Shown: positions 2 to 9,801 of the stretch, one piece after another
How the letters are laid out: each line of letters begins with the position of its first letter
Numbering within the stretch: position 1 is the stretch's first letter
Assembly (NCBI GenBank): GCA_040743155.1
Contig: JBFLJU010000001.1
Span: 496,001-560,000, forward strand
Reading direction: 5' to 3'
Origin: Cycloclasticus sp.
GTDB lineage: Bacteria > Pseudomonadota > Gammaproteobacteria > Methylococcales > Cycloclasticaceae
Length of the DNA stretch: 64,000 nt
Notes under the pieces: generated by a model
The model's database searches: none
Told to the model about the DNA's origin: nothing
What the model saw: the letters and a program-made list of their open reading frames with translations, nothing else
Translations under genes and position numbers: made by a program

Positions 2-865
2 GGAAATGGCCCGATTGTGGGTCCAGGGCTTTGGACAAATGTAACTGGAAACTGGTCAGACTACAAACTACCTGGTACAGCTGGAATAGACGGGGAAATT
101 GAAATTGAGAACCTCGGTACTTATGCGCTAGATACTGTTTACGGCTGGCATGCTGTGTGGTTTGTAATGGGTATTATCTGGTTGCTTTGGTGGATTAGAC
201 GACCAACTTTGTTACCACGCTACCGTGCTATTCAAGAAGATGTTGATAAAAACCTTCTCATCACTAGTGCAGATAAACGCATGGGTGTTTTAATGTTGAG
301 CGTTACACTGGCACTGGTTATTGGCGGCGCAATGAATGCTAATGCGAAATATAACGACATCGTTCCTTTGCAGACAGGAAATGTACCTGTTTTCCCATTG
401 CCAGCGCAGAATTCGCAATTGGTAGTAAAGGGTCTAAGCAGCAAATACAACGTACCTAAACGTGCAATGTCGTTAGAGGTGAGTGTTACCAATAATGGCA
501 ATAAACCAGTAAAAATTGGTGAGTTTGCAACAGCAGGAATACGCTTTGTGGTAGATCAATCGACATTATCTGATACGGCTGGTCAGGCTCTAAAGGCTAG
601 CTACAGCAATGTTACTGAGGATTACGTTGAAGAATACGTTCGAGAAGCACTTGAGATAAAAGGTGGTGATACAAGCGCAATACTTCCGGGTGAATCACGT
701 ACGTTAACCCTAGTTGCTGCTGATGCAGTTTGGGAGATTCAAGGCTTAAGTAAGATTGTTGAATCACCTGTTCGTCGTGTTGGTGGGCTTATTTACTTCT
801 TTGATGCCGATGGAAATCGCTACAGAGAGTATGTAGATATGGCAACCGATGTTGCCTACCGCTAG
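2..865 (+). CDS. pmoB: Copper membrane monooxygenase subunit B (PmoB/AmoB family), C-terminal part
   Basis: The reading frame is open from base 2, so this is the last ~287 residues of a gene that starts outside the window. Visible in order are a GPGLW stretch, a transmembrane helix near residues 47-65 (VYGWHAVWFVMGIIWLLWW), a second helix near 94-111, then a periplasmic cupredoxin-like domain with the family pattern PLQxG...ITNxGN-type segment...GEF.TA..RF and LAPGE-like ILPGESRTL. This order matches the C-terminal half of particulate methane/ammonia monooxygenase subunit B. The N-terminal copper-site histidines lie upstream of the window. Sequence divergence from methanotroph PmoB suggests a short-chain alkane (ethane/propane/butane) or related enzyme, but substrate cannot be read from this piece. 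The normal order is C-A-B, so C and A should lie just upstream. Confidence 0.9.
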   Translation, partial: GNGPIVGPGLWTNVTGNWSDYKLPGTAGIDGEIEIENLGTYALDTVYGWHAVWFVMGIIWLLWWIRRPTLLPRYRAIQEDVDKNLLITSADKRMGVLMLSVTLALVIGGAMNANAKYNDIVPLQTGNVPVFPLPAQNSQLVVKGLSSKYNVPKRAMSLEVSVTNNGNKPVKIGEFATAGIRFVVDQSTLSDTAGQALKASYSNVTEDYVEEYVREALEIKGGDTSAILPGESRTLTLVAADAVWEIQGLSKIVESPVRRVGGLIYFFDADGNRYREYVDMATDVAYR

Positions 866-875
866 GAGGTAACAA

Positions 876-1478
876 GTGGAGTATCGCAAAAGTAACAAGC
901 GGGCTCGCAGCTACGCAACCAGGGTCATTATGACCCTGGTTGCGTTTTTAGCGATTACAAGCCATACATCGGTATACGCTCAGAAGGCTGGCTCACAGGA
1001 AGAATTAGTTGGCTGTATTTTTAGTCTAGAAGGAAAGCGTATTCTTTTTGCCGCCTACCAGCCGCATATCGACAATAAAAGATTGTGTAGAAAATTGCCA
1101 GGTGCGACAGGTGCGACCTATTTTTCTTTAGATTTGGTCGATAAGCCATTACGGGAACGAGCGCTTAAGATAAGGGTTACGACAATTAAGCAAGGCGACA
1201 CAGATCTTCAATCTGCTAGCCCTATTGTGGACTTTGAAGTTGCCTCTTCACCAAGTGGGGTGGTGGATTTTGAACATGACTTCAATGGAGCCAAAGGTCA
1301 TTATCGTCTTGAGGTCATCAATGAGATGGATAATACGCAAGGTGGCTTCAATTTTGAGGTGGGTGCAGAGGAGTTCAAATGGAAAGGGAAATTTGGACAA
1401 AGAGTGGCTTTCGGCATGTTTGGAGGTTTCGCATTAGTCGGACTAGGCTATTTGGCATTCAGGAAGAAAAAAGCATAA
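876..1478 (+). CDS. PmoD/AmoD-like periplasmic copper-associated membrane protein, copy 1
   Basis: The 200-residue protein starts at a GTG with an excellent AGGAGG six bases upstream, ten bases after the monooxygenase B stop, so it is in the same operon. It has an N-terminal signal peptide (cleavage near AYA-like VYA, residue 35), a soluble domain with Cys47 and Cys71 (C-X23-C) around an AAYQP segment, and a C-terminal helix (about 178-194) followed by a basic FRKKKA tail. This architecture and place fit PmoD/AmoD/AmoE proteins of methane and ammonia oxidisers, some of which bind copper in a CuA-like site. I see no methionine between the two cysteines, so whether the full copper ligand set is kept is open. 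A strong palindrome lies inside its signal-peptide codons (see 913-949). Confidence 0.7.
   Translation: MEYRKSNKRARSYATRVIMTLVAFLAITSHTSVYAQKAGSQEELVGCIFSLEGKRILFAAYQPHIDNKRLCRKLPGATGATYFSLDLVDKPLRERALKIRVTTIKQGDTDLQSASPIVDFEVASSPSGVVDFEHDFNGAKGHYRLEVINEMDNTQGGFNFEVGAEEFKWKGKFGQRVAFGMFGGFALVGLGYLAFRKKKA
913..949 (+). terminator. Perfect palindrome with T-tract inside the signal-peptide codons (possible attenuator)
   Basis: Bases 913-928 and 930-945 are exact reverse complements (16 bp, one central base), and the palindrome runs straight into TTTTT at 945-949. This is the form of an intrinsic terminator placed 48 bases after the monooxygenase B stop but within codons 13-25 of the following gene. 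Translation of that gene would melt the hairpin; lack of translation would let it end transcription. The function is inferred. Confidence 0.5.
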
Positions 1479-1735
1479 AGTTTGCAACAAAAAAACTGTT
1501 TCACTTGTACTTAGCTCAACAAGTCAGTAGCTGGAAATAGAAACTATGAATGCTATAAATATAGGGCTGCTAGAGTTTTTATGTTAGTTAACTTCCTGTG
1601 ATTATGACGGAAGGCTATTTCAGTGGTTAGTAGTATAAGTGGTGGTAAATTTATAAAGTTATAACGAAACCTCAGAATAACTACAGCGCTTGACAATACA
1701 GCGTCGCCTAAAAGTGACTACTGTTGGTAAAAATT

Positions 1736-1824
1736 GGCTCAAAGTTTCCATTTACTAACGTAAACTGCGTTTTTCCGCCACTTTTTGTCGTGCCTTCATT
1801 CGCGTACGTTATGCAGAGGTCTCA
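1736..1824 (-). mobile_element. Solo end of an IS5-family-like insertion sequence
   Basis: Read on the minus strand from 1824 this begins GAGACCTCTGCATAACGT, which resembles termini of IS5-family elements, and continues with a purine-rich leader (AAAAAGTGGCGGAAAAAC). Positions 1805-1824 recur exactly, in inverse orientation, at 2782-2801. No transposase remains. The inner limit is uncertain and could reach about 1680. The rest of 1479-1735 holds no open frame or repeat that I can name. Confidence 0.5.
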
Positions 1825-1842
1825 CAATGATAAGGATTACAA

Positions 1843-2442
1843 ATGTTTACAATAGCTAGAGTAATTATAGTGTGTGTGTTGTTGTCTCTGTCCAGTCAGA
1901 TATGGGCGCACGGTGGTGTGGTGAGCAGGGGAAACGAGTGTAGATTACTCGTAGGTCCTTATACTATAAACTTTTCAGGTTACCAGCCACAAAACAATAG
2001 GTCTGAGCAGTTTTGTGATGATTTGCCAGTAGTCGGTGACTCTATTATCGTTCTAGATTTTGTCGATAAAAAACTACGCAAGATGACGGTAAACTTTAGA
2101 GTGATTAAAGCAGATGCTGCTCCATTAGGCACGGAGGAAGATGGGAAAGTTAATGAAGCTGAATTAGCGCAAACACCATTTTTTGAAATACCGGCCAAGC
2201 ATTATCCAAGGGGGATGATGACTATTGAGCAGAGTTTCAAAGAAAAAGGCCACTTTATTGGCTATGTTATCGTTGAAGGTGAAAATGATAAATTTATTTC
2301 TCGATTCCCATTCTCTGTTGGTTATCCTAAAGCTAGTATTCTAGACGTAGTTCAAATTCCTATTGCTGTTTTTTTAGTGATTGCTATTATGGTTTGGTTT
2401 GTTCGTAGAAAACGGGTTGTATTAAATGTAAAAGAAGCCTGA
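1843..2442 (+). CDS. PmoD/AmoD-like periplasmic copper-associated membrane protein, copy 2
   Basis: The 199-residue protein has an AAGGA ribosome site six bases before its ATG. It is a diverged paralogue of the protein at 876: signal peptide to about residue 22, Cys33 and Cys58 (C-X24-C) around a GYQP segment, LDFVDKKLRK against LDLVDKPLRE in copy 1, a late beta-rich part ending FPFSVG, then a C-terminal helix (about 170-188) and a basic tail. The mature N-terminus begins AHGG, and an N-terminal His after cleavage is a copper-binding possibility in this type of protein. It is separated from the operon by 364 bases and bracketed by inverted IS-like ends, so it is probably transcribed on its own. 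It may be an AmoE/AmoD-type partner; exact function unknown. Confidence 0.65.
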   Translation: MFTIARVIIVCVLLSLSSQIWAHGGVVSRGNECRLLVGPYTINFSGYQPQNNRSEQFCDDLPVVGDSIIVLDFVDKKLRKMTVNFRVIKADAAPLGTEEDGKVNEAELAQTPFFEIPAKHYPRGMMTIEQSFKEKGHFIGYVIVEGENDKFISRFPFSVGYPKASILDVVQIPIAVFLVIAIMVWFVRRKRVVLNVKEA

Positions 2443-2496
2443 CTTTGACTGAAGTTATAAAGGTATTCTGAGAAATACCTGTCACCGAATTGTTTT

Positions 2497-2533
2497 AAGC
2501 GTAATAACACCTAGTGCTATTACGCTTTTTTTA
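2497..2533 (+). terminator. Intrinsic terminator after the second PmoD-like gene
   Basis: AGCGTAATAACAC (2498-2510) pairs with GTGCTATTACGCT (2514-2526) with one mismatch and is followed by a T-run to 2532. It lies 55 bases after the stop codon. Confidence 0.8.
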
Positions 2534-2782
2534 TGTCCCTTACTGTCAAGCTCATCCGAAACTGGAAAGTTGAATTTGCGAGCTGATTTAACGAAACTTT
2601 TGCTCTTGGGTGAAAATAGGACGTGTTTGGAGGTGGAAATTTATTTTTATACGGATGTCTAATTGTTAAGAGTGTTCTTCACAATGTGTAATGCACCAGT
2701 CTTTATTCTGATTTTTTTACCACAGCATGCAGAAAGTAATAATGTTGCTAATGTAACTAGTAGCAGCACTCTTAATAATATT

Positions 2783-2850
2783 GAGACCTCTGCATAACGT
2801 AGCGGGCGCAGGCAAGAAGTTAATAGGGCTCATTTAGAATTAAAATAAAT
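2783..2850 (+). mobile_element. Second solo IS5-like end, inverse to the one at 1805-1824
   Basis: It starts GAGACCTCTGCATAACGTA, exactly the reverse complement of 1805-1823, then diverges (GCGGGCGCAGGCAAGAAG...). The two repeats face outward, so the bodies of the elements would have lain outside the 1825-2782 segment. No transposase frame is present in either flank within the window. The right limit is a guess. Confidence 0.5.
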
Positions 2851-2918
2851 CGAACGAACGTTTTAAGTCATCGATAATTAAGCATAAATATTATGCATCA
2901 AGCTGACTAGCAACCGAG

Positions 2919-2951
2919 CGATCAGGAGTTCGAATCTCTTCAGACGCGTCA
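2919..2951 (+). repeat. tRNA 3'-end-like fragment (T-arm, acceptor strand, TCA)
   Basis: AGGAG-TTCGAAT-CTCTT (2924-2940) forms a five-pair stem with a seven-base loop typical of a tRNA T-arm, followed by CAGACGC, a G and TCA. No D-arm, anticodon arm or 5' acceptor strand is found upstream, so this is only the 3' end of a tRNA-like gene. Such fragments are common as attachment-site copies of integrated elements. The rest of 2534-3050 shows only AT-rich non-coding sequence and the IS end. Confidence 0.45.
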
Positions 2952-2952
2952 T

Positions 2953-2984
2953 ACAAAAAAATCTCCTTCTGGAGGTTTTTTTGT
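2953..2984 (+). terminator. Intrinsic terminator directly after the tRNA-like fragment
   Basis: ACAAAAAAATCTCC pairs with GGAGGTTTTTTTGT around a TTCT loop. The A/T-rich outer stem makes it potentially bidirectional. Confidence 0.8.
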
Positions 2985-3059
2985 GCCTACCTAGTTTGTA
3001 AAACCTACTTTAAAGTTACCGTTTTTTGATGTAATTCATTGCAAAAATACGCTAACATT

Positions 3060-3151: not shown

Positions 3152-3237
3152 TTTCAGGCTATATCTTTTAATCTAAGCGTATTAGGATGCTGGGGGATTA
3201 CTCCACCGATATAAACAATAGGATACACAGGGGAAAT

Positions 3238-5391
3238 ATGAATACAGTCAACTTAAAAATCATCAAAAATACTCAGTCGGATATTGAATTCCAATCAGCA
3301 TCACTGGACATATGGGATAAAAAATACTGCTTGAAAAAACAGGATGGGTCACCGGTTGATGCAAATATCGAAGAAACTTATCAACGTGTTGCAGCAGCGA
3401 TTGCTGATGTGGAAGAAACAGCTGATAAAAAGGAATACTGGCACGATCAATTTGTATGGGCTTTAAAGCATGGTGCGATTCCAGCTGGTCGTATTATTTC
3501 TAATGCAGGTGCTAGTGCCTACAAACCTGCCACTTCAACCATTAACTGTACCGTGTCGGGATCAATTTCCGACTCTATGGACGATATTCTTAGTAAAACA
3601 CACGAGGCGGGTTTAACCCTTAAAGCTGGCTGTGGCATTGGGTATGAGTTTTCAACATTACGCCCTAAAGGCGCGTATGTGTCGGGCGCTGGTGCGAATA
3701 CATCGGGTCCTTTGTCGTTTATGGATATCTTTGACAAGATGTGTTTTACCGTGTCATCGGCTGGTGGTCGCCGTGGTGCTCAAATGGCTACTTTTGATGT
3801 TGCCCATCCTGATGTGCGTGATTTCGTTCGCGTAAAACGCGAAGACGGTCGTTTGCGTCAATTCAACTTATCGCTGCTTATTACCGATGATTTTGTTCAG
3901 GCAGTAAAAGACGATGACGATTGGCCGTTAGTGTTTCCGTTATCAGAAAAAGAAATGGCATCGGGCGATATTGATTTGAACGACACGGATAAAGTGTTAT
4001 GGCGCGAATGGCCGATAACAGAAGGTTATCAAGTGAATGACGTGGGCTTGGTCGCTTGCAGAATATACAACAGAATTAAAGCGCAGCGCTTATGGGAAAC
4101 CATTATGGCGTCCACTTATGATTATGCAGAACCTGGCTTTATCCTGATAGATAAGGTGAATGAAATGAACAATAACTGGTTCTGCGAAAATATTCGTGCA
4201 ACCAATCCATGTGGCGAGCAACCACTTCCAGCTTATGGTTCTTGTCTACTGGGCTCAATCAATTTAACTAAGTTCGTGTTAAATCCATTTACCTCAAAGG
4301 CCTCCTTTGATTGGGATAAATTTCGTCAAACTGTCGGTATTTTCACCCGTATGCTTGATAACGTAGTAGAAATTAATGGCTTGCCATTAGAAGGGCAAAG
4401 AGAGGCTATTGAGCACAAGCGTCGTCATGGCATGGGCTTTTTAGGCTTAGGCTCAACACTGACCATGATGGGTATTCCCTACGGTGAAGAAGAGTCTGTT
4501 AACTTCACGGGTGAAGTCAGTAAGCAATTAGCGGTAAGCGGCTGGGAAGCAGGCTTAGAGCTCGCCAAAGAAAAGGGCGCAGCACCGATCATGGATGAAG
4601 ACTTTAAAGTCACAGGTGATATGCTTCGTAAACGCCCTGAAATGTTGGACGATGGTTATGAAATTGGCGACACCGTAAAAGGCCGAATTTTACACGCACG
4701 ATACAGCCGCTATATGCAGCAAATAGCCAGCGTTGCACCAGAGTTAGTTGAAAAATTAGCAGAAACGGGCGCTCGATTTACCCATCACACTTCTATTGCA
4801 CCAACCGGCACTATCTCATTATCGCTGGCGAACAATGCCAGTAATGGTATTGAGCCTAGCTTTGCTCATCACTATGCGCGTAATGTTATTCGTGAAGGAC
4901 GCAATGCAAAAGAAAAAGTAGATGTATTCTCATTCGAGTTATTGGCTTATCGCTCACTCATTAACGAAAAAGCGATGCCCTATTCTGAGGTGGCAGAGGA
5001 AAAACTGCCTGACTACTTTGTAACAGCAGAAACCATCACGCCAAAACAGCACGTGGATATTCAAGCGGCCGCACAAAAATGGATTGATTCATCTATTTCA
5101 AAAACGGCGAATGTACCAACAGACTTCCCATTTGAAGAGTTTAAAGACATCTATCTTTACGCACACGAAAAGGGCTTAAAAGGCTGTACCACCTTCCGTT
5201 TTAACCCGGATGTATTCCAAGGCGTATTGGTTAAAGAATCAGACCTAGAAAATACCACATACCGTTTCAACCTCAAAGACGGCACAACGCTAGAAGTCAA
5301 AGGAAATGAAATGATCGAATATGAAGGTGAAACGCACACCGCAGCCAATTTATACGATGCCTTAAAAGAAGGTTATTACGGTAAATTTTAA
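3238..5391 (+). CDS. nrdJa: Adenosylcobalamin-dependent (class II) ribonucleotide reductase, catalytic subunit NrdJa
   Basis: I choose the ATG at 3238 (717 residues), which has AGGGG five bases upstream, over an in-frame ATG at 3187 without such a site. Family marks are STINC (Cys104), GCGIGYEFSTLRP, NPCGEQPLP with Cys325 and Glu327 of the active site, and SLANNASNGIEPSF. The enzyme makes deoxyribonucleotides from ribonucleotides with a B12-generated radical, independent of oxygen. It lacks the C-terminal cysteine tail, which is found in the next gene; this split NrdJa/NrdJb form is known from Pseudomonas. Regulation by NrdR is suggested by the upstream boxes. No ATP-cone domain is evident at the N-terminus. 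Confidence 0.93.
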   Translation: MNTVNLKIIKNTQSDIEFQSASLDIWDKKYCLKKQDGSPVDANIEETYQRVAAAIADVEETADKKEYWHDQFVWALKHGAIPAGRIISNAGASAYKPATSTINCTVSGSISDSMDDILSKTHEAGLTLKAGCGIGYEFSTLRPKGAYVSGAGANTSGPLSFMDIFDKMCFTVSSAGGRRGAQMATFDVAHPDVRDFVRVKREDGRLRQFNLSLLITDDFVQAVKDDDDWPLVFPLSEKEMASGDIDLNDTDKVLWREWPITEGYQVNDVGLVACRIYNRIKAQRLWETIMASTYDYAEPGFILIDKVNEMNNNWFCENIRATNPCGEQPLPAYGSCLLGSINLTKFVLNPFTSKASFDWDKFRQTVGIFTRMLDNVVEINGLPLEGQREAIEHKRRHGMGFLGLGSTLTMMGIPYGEEESVNFTGEVSKQLAVSGWEAGLELAKEKGAAPIMDEDFKVTGDMLRKRPEMLDDGYEIGDTVKGRILHARYSRYMQQIASVAPELVEKLAETGARFTHHTSIAPTGTISLSLANNASNGIEPSFAHHYARNVIREGRNAKEKVDVFSFELLAYRSLINEKAMPYSEVAEEKLPDYFVTAETITPKQHVDIQAAAQKWIDSSISKTANVPTDFPFEEFKDIYLYAHEKGLKGCTTFRFNPDVFQGVLVKESDLENTTYRFNLKDGTTLEVKGNEMIEYEGETHTAANLYDALKEGYYGKF

Positions 5392-6438: not shown

Positions 6439-6927
6439 ATGCTCTTACCTTGCTTAAAGGCGGTTAATTATTTACACTTAAAAGCGATGGATTATTTTCG
6501 CCCAATAAATAGACAAACACTGCTACTGTGGGGCTTATTGCTCTGTTTGGCATTATTGGGTGCGCAGGAAGTTAAACTGCACGTCCATCATCTAAATCAT
6601 GAGTCCAATGGGCTCTACGCTGGTCAGCATGCCCACGTTATTGATGCCTATGCCGCCAATAAGGTTGGCTATCATCGAACTTCTTTTGTTCATGACTCAT
6701 CTCACGATCACCATGATGGTGCGGTGTCCGAGGTTGATATCAGCTCTGATGGCTTGTTGAAAAACATCAATAACAATATTCATAGCATCGCGCTATTCGC
6801 TCTATTTTTTACTTTAATAACATTTGTTTCCTCACAACTGCTCGTTCAGCGGTGCCGTGAGAGCAAACTGATCCTTCATCAGCCCTACACTATTTCTCCA
6901 CCTTTACGGGCACCTCCACAGCACTAA
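6439..6927 (+). CDS. His-rich small membrane protein upstream of the Czc system
   Basis: This 162-residue protein has one helix near residues 27-45 (TLLLWGLLLCLALLGAQ), a histidine-rich periplasmic stretch (KLHVHHLNHE, GQHAHV, HDSSHDHHDG), a second helix near 116-134, and a Pro-rich tail ending PPLRAPPQH. A second possible ATG at 6487 would give 146 residues and start just before the first helix; neither has a clear ribosome site. Such proteins often sit in front of heavy-metal RND operons; the His clusters suggest metal binding, for example buffering or delivery to the efflux system. No named family is recognised with confidence. Confidence 0.6.
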   Translation: MLLPCLKAVNYLHLKAMDYFRPINRQTLLLWGLLLCLALLGAQEVKLHVHHLNHESNGLYAGQHAHVIDAYAANKVGYHRTSFVHDSSHDHHDGAVSEVDISSDGLLKNINNNIHSIALFALFFTLITFVSSQLLVQRCRESKLILHQPYTISPPLRAPPQH

Positions 6928-7183
6928 CATTCTTCTGGGCGTTTTTATTTAACTTCGCGTTAAGCTTTTTGCGTGGAGTTTATAGGCTTAATTTTTGTGG
7001 CAGTACGCCATCAAATGCTTTGCCTCAGAAGAAGTTCCCCATCAATTTTTTCGATTTAGTTCTTTTCGGGATGTGAATGTTGAGCGATACATCACAGTCG
7101 ATTAGGTGAAGCCGAAAGCCATTAATTGTTTTTTAAATATGGTTATGTTTGCTCAATGGGTAAGCGTACACAAGGAGTTTGTA

Positions 7184-8503
7184 ATGCAGGTATTATTTCT
7201 TATGTCTAAACAAATAGCGGTGCAATTTGTTCTACTTTGTTTGGCATTTCTAAGCGTCATTGCTTTTACGGGCACGGCAGTTGCTTCGGAGTTGTCAGCT
7301 AACAAGCAGACAATCAGTTTGCATGAAGCGGTTATTAAAACCATTGAACACAACCCAAACTTACAGGCGTTTGATTATCAGTTGAAGGCTCAGCAAGGTC
7401 GAGTGCAACAAGCGGGTCTGGCCCCAAGCCCCCGGCTCAGCTTTCAACTGGAAGATGTTTTAGGCTCGGGCAATAGCAAGGGTTTAGATAGTGCAGAAGC
7501 GACCCTTGGAATTAGCTGGGTGCTTGAACGTGGCGTTCGACAGCGCTATGTTGATGCCGCACAGGCAGGGTCGTCTCTACTTGAAGCAGAAGCTGATATG
7601 AGGCGTCTTAACGCAGCCGCTGAAACAGCGCGTCGTTATATAGTCAGTTTGGCCTATCAAGCACGAGAAGCCAATGCGCTTGCTACTATTTTACTTGCAC
7701 AAGAGACGGTTAAATCGGTTTCTAAACGGGTAAAAGCAGGTAAGACGCCCAAGGCTGAACTGTCTCGAGCGCAAGCAGAATTGGCACGAAGAAAACTTCA
7801 ACGCGAAGACATTGATCACGAGCTGCTCACCGCAAATCGTCGATTGGCCGCTCAGTGGGGTGAGACGGTGCCGATGTTTACGCGGGTTGAAGGCGATATT
7901 ACGCGGCTCCCCGAAGTGGCTTCATTTGCATCGCTTAGCTCCCAATTATCTCAAAACCCAGAATTTTCGCTGCTATTGTCAAATCAGCTGTTAAAAAAAG
8001 CCGAATTAAAGCTCACTTTGGCGCAAAGCAAGCCAAGTTGGCTTCTTAATGCGGGGGTTCGTCATGCTAGTAATAGCGATGATCAAGCCTTTGTTGCTGG
8101 CATAAGCATTCCTTTTGGTGAACGTACGCGCAATGGTGGACGTATTGCCGAAGCACGCGCAGATTTGGCTAGAGCAAACAGTGAAGAGCGGTCGGCACGT
8201 ATTCGCATAGAAACAGCACTCTTCGTAATACATGAAAAGTTGCAACACAGCTTGCATGTTATTGAGACCGTTCGCGGTGACATTATTCCGCCTCTTAAGC
8301 AGGCAGTTATTGATACTCGACGAGTATACGCGCTTGGGCGCTACAGTTATTTGGAGCTGCGCAGTGTTCAAGAAGAATTGCTGGCCGCGCAAAATAGCTT
8401 GCTTGAAGCGAGCGTTAGCGCTCAACACTACATTATTGAAATTGAACGATTAACCGGTGTGCGTATGGCGCAACCGACGACTGCATTAGGAGATACACAA
8501 TGA
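7184..8503 (+). CDS. czcC: Outer-membrane channel of heavy-metal efflux (CzcC, TolC/OEP family)
   Basis: I choose ATG 7184 (439 residues), with AAGGAG six bases upstream; a GTG at 7106 in frame lacks this. A signal peptide ends near AVA-S (about residue 34). Two outer-membrane efflux domains follow, rich in Ala/Gln/Leu coiled coil (ARREANAL..., KAELSRAQAELARRKLQ). The protein forms the trimeric channel that lets the RND pump expel metal across the outer membrane. Its stop overlaps the start of czcB (ATGA), so the two are translationally coupled. Confidence 0.88.
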   Translation: MQVLFLMSKQIAVQFVLLCLAFLSVIAFTGTAVASELSANKQTISLHEAVIKTIEHNPNLQAFDYQLKAQQGRVQQAGLAPSPRLSFQLEDVLGSGNSKGLDSAEATLGISWVLERGVRQRYVDAAQAGSSLLEAEADMRRLNAAAETARRYIVSLAYQAREANALATILLAQETVKSVSKRVKAGKTPKAELSRAQAELARRKLQREDIDHELLTANRRLAAQWGETVPMFTRVEGDITRLPEVASFASLSSQLSQNPEFSLLLSNQLLKKAELKLTLAQSKPSWLLNAGVRHASNSDDQAFVAGISIPFGERTRNGGRIAEARADLARANSEERSARIRIETALFVIHEKLQHSLHVIETVRGDIIPPLKQAVIDTRRVYALGRYSYLELRSVQEELLAAQNSLLEASVSAQHYIIEIERLTGVRMAQPTTALGDTQ

Positions 8504-9801
8504 ATAACGTAATAACCCCAGCGGCTATACTGCATAAGACCGTCCGTGCCCAAAACAGCTCTCATCAAATATTATTACCGTTACTATTGGCCTTGTTTCT
8601 GAGCGCTTGTGGTGATAACCCATCAGACCAAGGCATCTCGTCGGGTGATGAATACGGTGAAGTGGCTGAAGTAGAACCTGAAAAAGGCCCACATCGCGGA
8701 CGGCTTTTAAAAGAGGGTGACTTTACCCTTGAATTGGCTATCTTCGAGACAGGTGTACCGCCAGAATTCCGTGCTTGGGCAACAAAAAATGGTCAAGTCA
8801 TTAGCCCTAATGAGCTGGATCTTAATATCAAGTTAAGCCGTTTAGATGGCACGGTTGATGATATTAACTTTGCTCAACAAGGGGATGCTTTACGTGGCGA
8901 TACGGTTATTTACGAGCCACATTCATTTCTCGTCAGCATTACCGCCACGCATAAAGGCATAACCCATAGCTGGCAATACGATAACTTTGAAGGCCGCACT
9001 AAAATTGAAACTGCAGTGGCCGATGCATTGGAGATTGGAACAGACATTGCTGGTTCTGTCGTCATGCAGGAAGCCCTTGGAGTTTATGGTCAAATTGCAG
9101 CCAATAATGAGCAGTTACGTCATATCACCGCTCGTTTTGATGGCGCGGTTAAATCTGTTTTGGTGTCAAAGGGTGAGCGGGTACGCAAAGGTCAAACACT
9201 GGCCACGATTGAAAGTAACGAAAGCTTGCAGCGCTTTAGTATCGTTTCACCGATTGCTGGGGTCATTACTCAGCGTGATGTTAATACGGGTGAGCAAACC
9301 AATGGCCGTCAGTTATTCAGTGTGCTGGATAATCGCACCGTGTGGGCAGAATTATCTATTTTCCCTGGCGATTTGGCGAAAGTGAAAATGGGTGCCGCTG
9401 TCACTATTATTGATAGCGCCAGTGGTTTTATGGCTGAGGGAACAGTATCCCAAATTAACTTGCAGGCAGAGTCAGATCAATCCGTTGGTGTTCGTGTGGT
9501 GTTGGATAACACGGCTGGGCAGCTTCTTCCTGGGCGACATATCAGCGCTAACGTAACCATTGGTGAACACACTGCGGCTTTAGCAGTAAAACGAACCGGG
9601 CTACAAGCTTTTCGTGACTTTACCGTGGTCTACACAAAAATAGGTGAACAGTACGAAGTTCGTATGCTTGAGCTAGGTTTGCAAGCGGGAGAATGGGCTG
9701 AGGTGCTGGGTGGACTGAAACCAGGTGCTCGTTATGTGAGTGAAAATAGTTATGTTATTAAAGCGGATATTGAAAAATCTGGCGCATCTCACGATCACTA
9801 A
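8500..9801 (+). CDS. czcB: Periplasmic adaptor of heavy-metal efflux RND system (CzcB family), lipoprotein
   Basis: A 433-residue membrane-fusion protein. The N-terminus has a hydrophobic stretch and a lipobox (LSAC near residue 37), so it is probably anchored by a lipid. Residues about 60-165 are the CzcB-type N-terminal domain (GPHRGRLL, FETGVPPEFRAWA, LRGDTVIYEPHSF, HSWQYDNFEGRT). A barrel-sandwich hybrid follows (VLVSKGERVRKGQTLATIES... PIAGVITQRDVNTGEQ) and then beta-barrel and proximal domains. The C-terminus ends SHDH. It links CzcA to CzcC and is in one operon with both. Confidence 0.9.
   Translation: MNNVITPAAILHKTVRAQNSSHQILLPLLLALFLSACGDNPSDQGISSGDEYGEVAEVEPEKGPHRGRLLKEGDFTLELAIFETGVPPEFRAWATKNGQVISPNELDLNIKLSRLDGTVDDINFAQQGDALRGDTVIYEPHSFLVSITATHKGITHSWQYDNFEGRTKIETAVADALEIGTDIAGSVVMQEALGVYGQIAANNEQLRHITARFDGAVKSVLVSKGERVRKGQTLATIESNESLQRFSIVSPIAGVITQRDVNTGEQTNGRQLFSVLDNRTVWAELSIFPGDLAKVKMGAAVTIIDSASGFMAEGTVSQINLQAESDQSVGVRVVLDNTAGQLLPGRHISANVTIGEHTAALAVKRTGLQAFRDFTVVYTKIGEQYEVRMLELGLQAGEWAEVLGGLKPGARYVSENSYVIKADIEKSGASHDH

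Follow-up and report, generated by a model that had tools for sequence, protein, structure and literature searches.

The PmoD protein of Methylocystis forms, according to the accessible part of PMC6189053, a CuA copper center that is assembled between two monomers: Cys41, Met49 and His51 of its Cx7MxHxnC motif are required for this center, and Cys65 is no CuA ligand. The same part of that study reports that 29% of PmoDs (trimmed set of 860 sequences) hold the Cys pair alone, that these are typically found near copC or near genes of unknown relevance, and that the one such protein tested binds copper and gives no CuA. In the present work, we analyzed a 64,000-nucleotide stretch of DNA (the window), bases 496001-560000 of the 2.56-Mb single-contig genome of a marine, oil-degrading member of the genus Cycloclasticus (G000), which opens inside an operon for a copper membrane monooxygenase (CuMMO). 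This operon, op2, ends in two PmoD-family genes, D1 and D2, whose products lack the CuA-forming motif. We consider it about an even chance (probability roughly 0.5) that op2 is a horizontally acquired CuMMO whose D1 and D2, having no CuA center, serve copper loading, assembly or stabilization. Two PmoDs that are kept without CuA ligands in one operon separate two possible roles of the family toward methane, ammonia and alkane monooxygenases, CuA redox center versus copper loading or scaffold.

The operon and its genes are located as follows (window coordinates unless the genome is named):

op2, genome 493697-498442, plus strand: complete pmoC-A-B-D1-D2 operon, straddling the left window edge
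pmoB 3' part, 2..865, plus strand: C-terminal 287 amino acids of the op2 B subunit (PF04744 E 3.1e-67; PDB PmoB 6cxh E 1e-53); the gene begins left of the window
D1, 876..1478, plus strand: PmoD-family protein with a GTG start; Met/His ligand motif and HG-type mature start both absent
D2, 1843..2442, plus strand: PmoD/AmoD-type protein; HGG start and Cys pair kept, T-I-N in place of the Met/His motif

The whole open frame of op2 pmoB spans genome positions 495423-496865 (frame limits; the start codon is provisional). The PmoB-type C-terminus and the copper monooxygenase that the initial annotation had recognized at the window start both hold: The PmoB family match includes the assumed copper ligands, and pmoC and pmoA belong to the same operon. 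They lie left of the window, beyond the view of that annotation, as do an integrase remnant and a tRNA-Arg gene. A second op2 is held by the Bathymodiolus heckerae symbiont (LWTL01000101; G005). The GTG start of D1 at 876 is preceded by AGGAGGT, which ends 5 bases upstream, and the G005 ortholog has ATG at the same codon.

D1 and D2 share one layout, as had been noticed before: an N-terminal hydrophobic helix, a Cys pair around YQP (C-X23-C in D1, C-X24-C in D2), LDxVDKxLR, F-x-F-x-VG and a C-terminal helix with a basic tail. Both hydrophobic helices are visible in the sequences and in the models, the calls being made without a dedicated predictor. In a sequence search, D2 matches the PmoD structure 6cpd with E 1.3e-15; the match of D1 is weak (E 0.1, rank 2 below an unrelated chain with E 0.059). 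An AlphaFold2 model of D1, built with 18 relatives, reaches a predicted local distance difference test score (pLDDT) of 81.5 and retrieves 6cpd first in Foldseek (E 5.1e-8), while VIA-align superimposes it on 6cpd with Z 16.1 and a root-mean-square deviation of 2.0 over 117 residues; the rows below, Z up to 9.4, are mostly immunoglobulin-like domains which the tool flags as common. The model of D2 (pLDDT 86.1) likewise retrieves 6cpd first in Foldseek (E 1.9e-11). Because 6cpd is matched by the sequence of D2 and by the predicted models of both proteins, we assign D1 and D2 to the PmoD family as predicted cupredoxins, and the earlier placement among PmoD/AmoD-type accessory proteins is borne out, for D2 by sequence and for D1 by predicted fold. 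An unrelated family was considered for D1 and rejected: Pfam and NCBIfam gave a sub-threshold LPXTG-anchor-like match on the C-terminal helix, and 6cpd stands far above the other folds.

To compare the copper-ligand positions, 78 PmoD-family proteins, drawn from 80 kept PmoB loci, from the own genus and from a D1-like search, were aligned with 6cpd (79 rows, identical rows merged); this collection is not a census. A PmoD is called in-operon if its gene shares the strand of pmoB and lies between -150 and +1100 bases from it (n=51), and an HG-type start denotes an HG or HR in the 22 residues that precede the first Cys, with no prediction of cleavage. In this alignment, which the initial annotation had proposed, both proteins retain the Cys pair (C47/C71 in D1, C33/C58 in D2), whose two columns are Cys in 79/79 rows, and both have lost the Met and His positions: The residues at Cys+8 to Cys+10 read R-I-L in D1 and T-I-N in D2, and the Cx7MxHxnC motif of the CuA-forming subgroup is absent from either protein. 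The missing Met between the Cys residues had been taken as the sign of a changed site, which is correct but incomplete, as the His at Cys+10 is gone from both as well. This His is present in 63 of the 78 relatives and in 39/51 in-operon ones. The 12 in-operon exceptions comprise seven op1 D proteins of the genus and one betaproteobacterial protein, all with N at this position and the Met kept, as well as D1, D2 and their two orthologs. His loss is rarer than Met loss and, within the genus, had already occurred in the op1-D clade that yielded D2. Met+8, Met+9 and His+10 are all missing in only four of the 51 in-operon PmoDs, namely D1, D2 and their G005 orthologs. An HG-type start occurs in 49/51, and the two exceptions are both D1 proteins. 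Ligand loss need not equal loss of function, however, because a methanotroph made to express a PmoD whose Met is replaced by Ala reportedly showed increased acetone oxidation, according to the accessible part of PMC8764830. The same source describes Methylomonas sp. DH-1 as having a pmo operon devoid of pmoD.

A D1–D2 heterodimer might instead keep a dinuclear copper center with other ligands, for example D1 His64 and the Cys of each partner: His64 directly follows YQP and is conserved in both D1 proteins, and a CuA spanning two monomers is the arrangement given for PmoD in the available text of PMC6189053. We nevertheless regard such a center as quite unlikely, given that Met49 and His51 are, by the same text, each needed in 6cpd and that neither D1 nor D2 retains either of them.

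The PmoD-family assignment is in keeping with a genome that encodes CuMMOs, three pmoCAB operons being present next to six PmoD-family genes (D1-D6). The two further operons are:

op1, genome 338829-342750: C, A, B, D3, then multicopper-oxidase-family genes
op3, genome 1251842-1248322, minus strand: C, A, B, D5; D6 just upstream

In a PmoD tree of 43 rows, which we chose from the 79, the op1-D clade of the genus includes D2 (100/100), which is 69% identical to D3 of op1; judged by this position, D2 derives from that clade. D1 and its ortholog (56%) share a long branch next to methanotroph PmoDs that resemble lipoproteins (97/93), with AmoE in the same half of the tree (87/87). Approximately unbiased (AU) tests reject none of four placements of D1: with AmoE (p 0.175), with op3-D (0.288), with the D2/D3 clade (0.175) or with D2 and its ortholog alone (0.262). 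The notion of a duplicated accessory protein, put forward in the initial annotation, does not fare well: Since the best trees set D2 in the op1-D clade and D1 elsewhere, the pair is better described as two PmoDs which these trees keep apart, although the p of 0.262 still permits a D1–D2 grouping. Tandem duplication in place is not supported by the trees; the D1–D2 tandem is kept in both op2 genomes. As a separate observation, several methanotroph pmoB loci (L091 7311-7868, L093 8341-8973 and similar ones) are accompanied on the other strand by a PmoD relative that resembles a lipoprotein and reads A-V-H at the ligand positions.

The tree also bears on whether D1 is an AmoE ortholog and op2 a degenerate amoCABED-type layout, which we hold to be rather unlikely. 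The gene order B-E-D would be that of betaproteobacterial ammonia-oxidizing bacteria (beta-AOB; accessible part of PMC7584546), and D1 and AmoE share one half of the tree. D1 is, however, nearer to the methanotroph lipoprotein-like group, long branches meet, the AU tests exclude none of the four placements, D2 groups not with AmoD but with the op1-D proteins of Cycloclasticus, and the Cx7MxHxnC motif of AmoE is absent from D1 in the alignment.

The monooxygenase itself is as narrowly distributed as D1. A contig scan for PmoB, of which the best 80 of 354 relatives were kept, gave one close PmoB (G005, 65%), the next being 42% identical; among 311 genomes of the order, 238 match PmoB at 1e-30 and only G000 and G005 hold the op2 type (66%; next 39%). 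The identity between the two op2 PmoBs varies from 65 to 69% by method. D1 has its ortholog in G005 (56-57% identity) and no match of comparable score elsewhere among the 311 genomes: 22 pass 1e-7, and the best besides G000 and G005 reaches 1.2e-10. The op2 PmoB and D1 hence co-occur in the same 2/311. In a quick tree of PmoB (87 of 96 B hits), op2 is a two-row lineage of its own on a stem of 1.42 changes per column. In a quick C+A+B tree without a mixture model (75 rows; of the 96, 15 have no A or C in the stretch and six are identical), its stem measures 0.98, and the group closest to it, with support 87, consists of op3 and a single proteobacterial row. Both trees place op2 outside the clades of methanotroph particulate methane monooxygenase (pMMO) and AOB ammonia monooxygenase, so that the B subunit does not group inside methanotroph PmoB with an ordinary PmoD. 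The earlier label "hydrocarbon-type" is plausible in view of the genus and of this tree position; op2 is perhaps of the short-chain-alkane type. Nine positions which, following pMMO work, we assume to be copper ligands (D,H,H plus N,H,H in PmoC; H,H,H in PmoB) show no variation across 81/81 operons. Because of this invariance the op2 enzyme looks intact, and it is probably functional.

The surroundings of op2 have the anatomy of a tRNA-borne island, bounded by the following features:

intact tRNA-Arg(ACG), genome 492638-492714: left island end
displaced tRNA-Arg(ACG) 3' end, 2912..2951, plus strand: 37/40 identical to the tRNA 3' end; right island boundary
flanking gene outside the island, 3187..5391, plus strand: putative ribonucleotide reductase, read from sequence alone; anchor for the empty site

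The island measures ~6.2 kb in the order tRNA-Arg, integrase remnant, op2, tRNA fragment, putative ribonucleotide reductase gene. The remnant, a tyrosine recombinase piece of 109 amino acids (PF00589 E 3.7e-13), adjoins the tRNA. The fragment at 2912-2951 had escaped the initial annotation; the second-best 40-mer for the tRNA 3' end in the window has 17 mismatches. Among relatives with the reductase gene, 14/16 have a whole tRNA-Arg 5' of it, and in the other two the contig ends nearby, one still showing the tRNA 3' end. The tRNA–reductase gap, measured in 13 of the 14, spans 244-1040 bases. In G001 and G014 (L198, L208) the homology to the right flank starts at the first base after the tRNA, that is, at a clean empty site. 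Four relatives, G005 among them, have longer gaps of 532-1040 bases, and for this reason the site may take up other DNA too. The recombinase remnant recurs at the same tRNA in G005 (69% across 109 amino acids); none of the other loci examined has it, and the two op2 holders are the two holders of the remnant. With a regenerated tRNA, a displaced fragment, an integrase remnant and empty sites in relatives, op2 is island-borne in this genome, and because only a 109-amino-acid integrase piece remains, the island is now probably fixed.

It would be conceivable that op2 is an ordinary operon of the genus that most members have lost, the tRNA fragment being coincidental; its patchy presence and normal guanine-plus-cytosine (GC) content would fit loss too, and the operon sits elsewhere in G005. 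We consider this very improbable in the face of the 37/40 match at the border, the remnant next to the intact tRNA, the intact tRNA 5' of the reductase in 14/16 relatives, and the fact that the only other op2 holder has the same remnant at the same tRNA. Lateral transfer of entire CuMMO operons has been inferred from trees before (PMC6215863, accessible part).

Within op2, two further features distinguish the D1–D2 part:

terminator-like perfect hairpin followed by T's, 913..945, plus strand: inside the putative signal-peptide codons of D1
IS-like (insertion-sequence-like) scar, 1663..1826 (ends approximate): about 160 bases, absent from the orthologous G005 D1–D2 gap
IS-like inverted repeat, first arm, 1805-1836: left of D2
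IS-like inverted repeat, second arm, 2770..2801, plus strand: right of D2; arms 84% complementary over 32 nt

The hairpin has a folding energy of -33.3 kcal/mol (z -9.2, 0/200 shuffles), its G005 counterpart -23.9 (z -6.8). Its stem, 15 pairs here and 12 in G005, contains one compensatory pair (C-G versus T-A) that alters two amino acids, and its span is 28/33 identical to G005, compared with 51/87 elsewhere in the first 120 bases. At 13/49 B–D junctions (some genomes counted twice under two locus ids) there is a hairpin followed by a T run; these junctions include all op2 rows and 5/7 op1 loci of the genus, where it sits between B and D; AOB loci have none at this junction under a strict test. 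Judged by its sequence, the op2 hairpin may be a partial terminator that lowers D1–D2 relative to CAB. A terminator-like hairpin likewise lies in the D gene start of op3 in G009 (L051 around 6700).

According to the alignment with the G005 gap, the IS-like insertion now parts D1 from D2 in this genome. The 19-mer end of the inverted repeat has only these two places within 2 mismatches in the own genome, and a shorter 17-mer has one further place with 2 mismatches; the IS-like end GAGACCTCTGCATAACG has 26 places within 2 mismatches in G003 and 15 in G004, the reversed control pattern 0. D2 as transposon cargo was considered and ruled out as its origin: G005 keeps the D1–D2 tandem without the insert, and the repeat is an IS-like end. 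The stretches beside D2 (1480-1840, 2445-3000) gave no match in the plasmid collection.

An insertion between two genes that have lost their ligands, one of them very divergent, could also suggest that the transfer left D1 and D2 as relics whose function is being lost, with the PmoDs of op1 and op3 doing the work. This seems unlikely to us, as the frames are open in two species, and the Cys pair, the fold and the D1–D2 tandem are retained in both genomes. The ratios of nonsynonymous to synonymous substitution rates (dN/dS) against the G005 orthologs, 0.38 for D1 and 0.26 for D2 (PmoB: 0.23), likewise disfavor decayed copies; the value of D3, 0.035, rests on a saturated dS and is not used as a yardstick.

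We now return to the main reading, op2 as an acquired CuMMO with CuA-free helpers. The set of genes, their predicted fold, the loss of ligands, the purifying selection and the anatomy of the island are observed; substrate, copper delivery, heterodimer and attenuation are inferred. The operon would have entered the Cycloclasticus lineage via a small integrative element at tRNA-Arg(ACG). D1 and D2, predicted periplasmic, membrane-anchored PmoD-family cupredoxins, would serve the op2 monooxygenase without the Cys-Met-His residues of CuA, most likely in copper loading, assembly or stabilization. This copper role could run via the conserved Cys pair plus, in D2, the N-terminal His. The two proteins possibly form a heterodimer, and the terminator-like hairpin at the D1 start suggests that they are made in smaller amount than CAB. 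A more far-reaching version, which we put forward tentatively and hold to be possible rather than probable, sees in op2 a naturally CuA-free module and in assembly or scaffolding, not CuA electron transfer, the older common job of PmoD, with D1 and D2 as a heterodimer.

Several observations weigh against this picture. Neither Met is present in 10/51 in-operon PmoDs, and the Met positions are freely variable among the op3-type D proteins of this genus, so that Met loss by itself is common. D1 offers only His64, conserved in both D1 proteins, as a candidate ligand beyond the Cys pair, and its copper binding is doubtful from the sequence. As the two Cys form a disulfide in 6cpd (accessible part of PMC6189053), the pair might be purely structural. 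Such a hairpin is missing from most in-operon B–D junctions (36/49). In G005, op2 lies on another contig and not at tRNA-Arg, the 12 kb read there containing no tRNA, and the island is unremarkable in GC content, which gives no sign of foreign origin. Lastly, the alkane-type assignment is weak because the join of op2 and op3 has a support of only 87 in a quick tree.

PmoD relatives also occur in other settings. The sixth PmoD gene lies outside the window:

D4, genome 578333-578995 (L017 4334-4996): before cytochrome c oxidase genes

D4, of the Cx9H type, lies immediately ahead of genes that Pfam identifies as cytochrome c oxidase subunits II and I, an order that G007, G010 and G012 share as judged by sequence, and it might take part in assembling the oxidase's CuA site. 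In G017 and G008 (L049 7565-10537, L056 1-1210), an op1-type D is followed by an op1-like multicopper oxidase, with no pmoCAB in the stretch read; D and multicopper oxidase may for this reason be a unit of their own. Further along the window, at 6439-9801, a short His-rich protein is followed by a putative efflux outer-membrane factor and periplasmic adaptor.

Among described systems, the particulate hydrocarbon monooxygenases of Cycloclasticus (PMC12510462, accessible part) come from the same genus, with several CuMMO copies per genome and subunits detected in n-pentane proteomes; "pmoD" was not found in the main text of that paper. Our literature search returned no paper joining Cycloclasticus and PmoD, although the B. 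heckerae symbiont genome paper may describe op2, and titles and abstract starts showed no pmoCAB or Cycloclasticus monooxygenase island at a tRNA; the island position of op2 and the hairpin in the D1 signal-peptide codons are new here. The PmoD of Methylocystis sp. Rockwell (6cpd; accessible part of PMC6189053) shares with D1 and D2 the Cys pair, the cupredoxin domain and the gene position beside pmoCAB, and its signal peptide and C-terminal membrane helix have putative counterparts in the hydrophobic helices of both proteins, but it forms CuA through Cx7MxHxnC, where D1 has R-I-L and D2 T-I-N, and D1 in addition lacks the HG-type start. The Cys-pair-only PmoDs share with D1 and D2 the absence of the Met/His motif; they typically lie near copC (PMC6189053, same part), whereas op2 has two within a CuMMO operon. 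The AmoE–AmoD pair of beta-ammonia oxidizers (PMC7584546, accessible part) resembles op2 in its two tandem PmoD-family genes behind B, yet AmoE keeps M-x-H and AmoD M-H, which D1 and D2 have not, D2 belongs to the op1-D proteins of Cycloclasticus, and the identity of D1 as an AmoE is not firm. The op2 island finally shares with tRNA-borne genomic islands of the Islander type (PMC4383910, accessible part) the regenerated tRNA, the displaced fragment and the tyrosine integrase, but its integrase is reduced to 109 amino acids and its cargo is one CuMMO operon. A whole CuMMO together with its helpers thus forms a 6-kb unit beside a tRNA gene here, a concrete case of the lateral operon transfer that trees had led others to infer.

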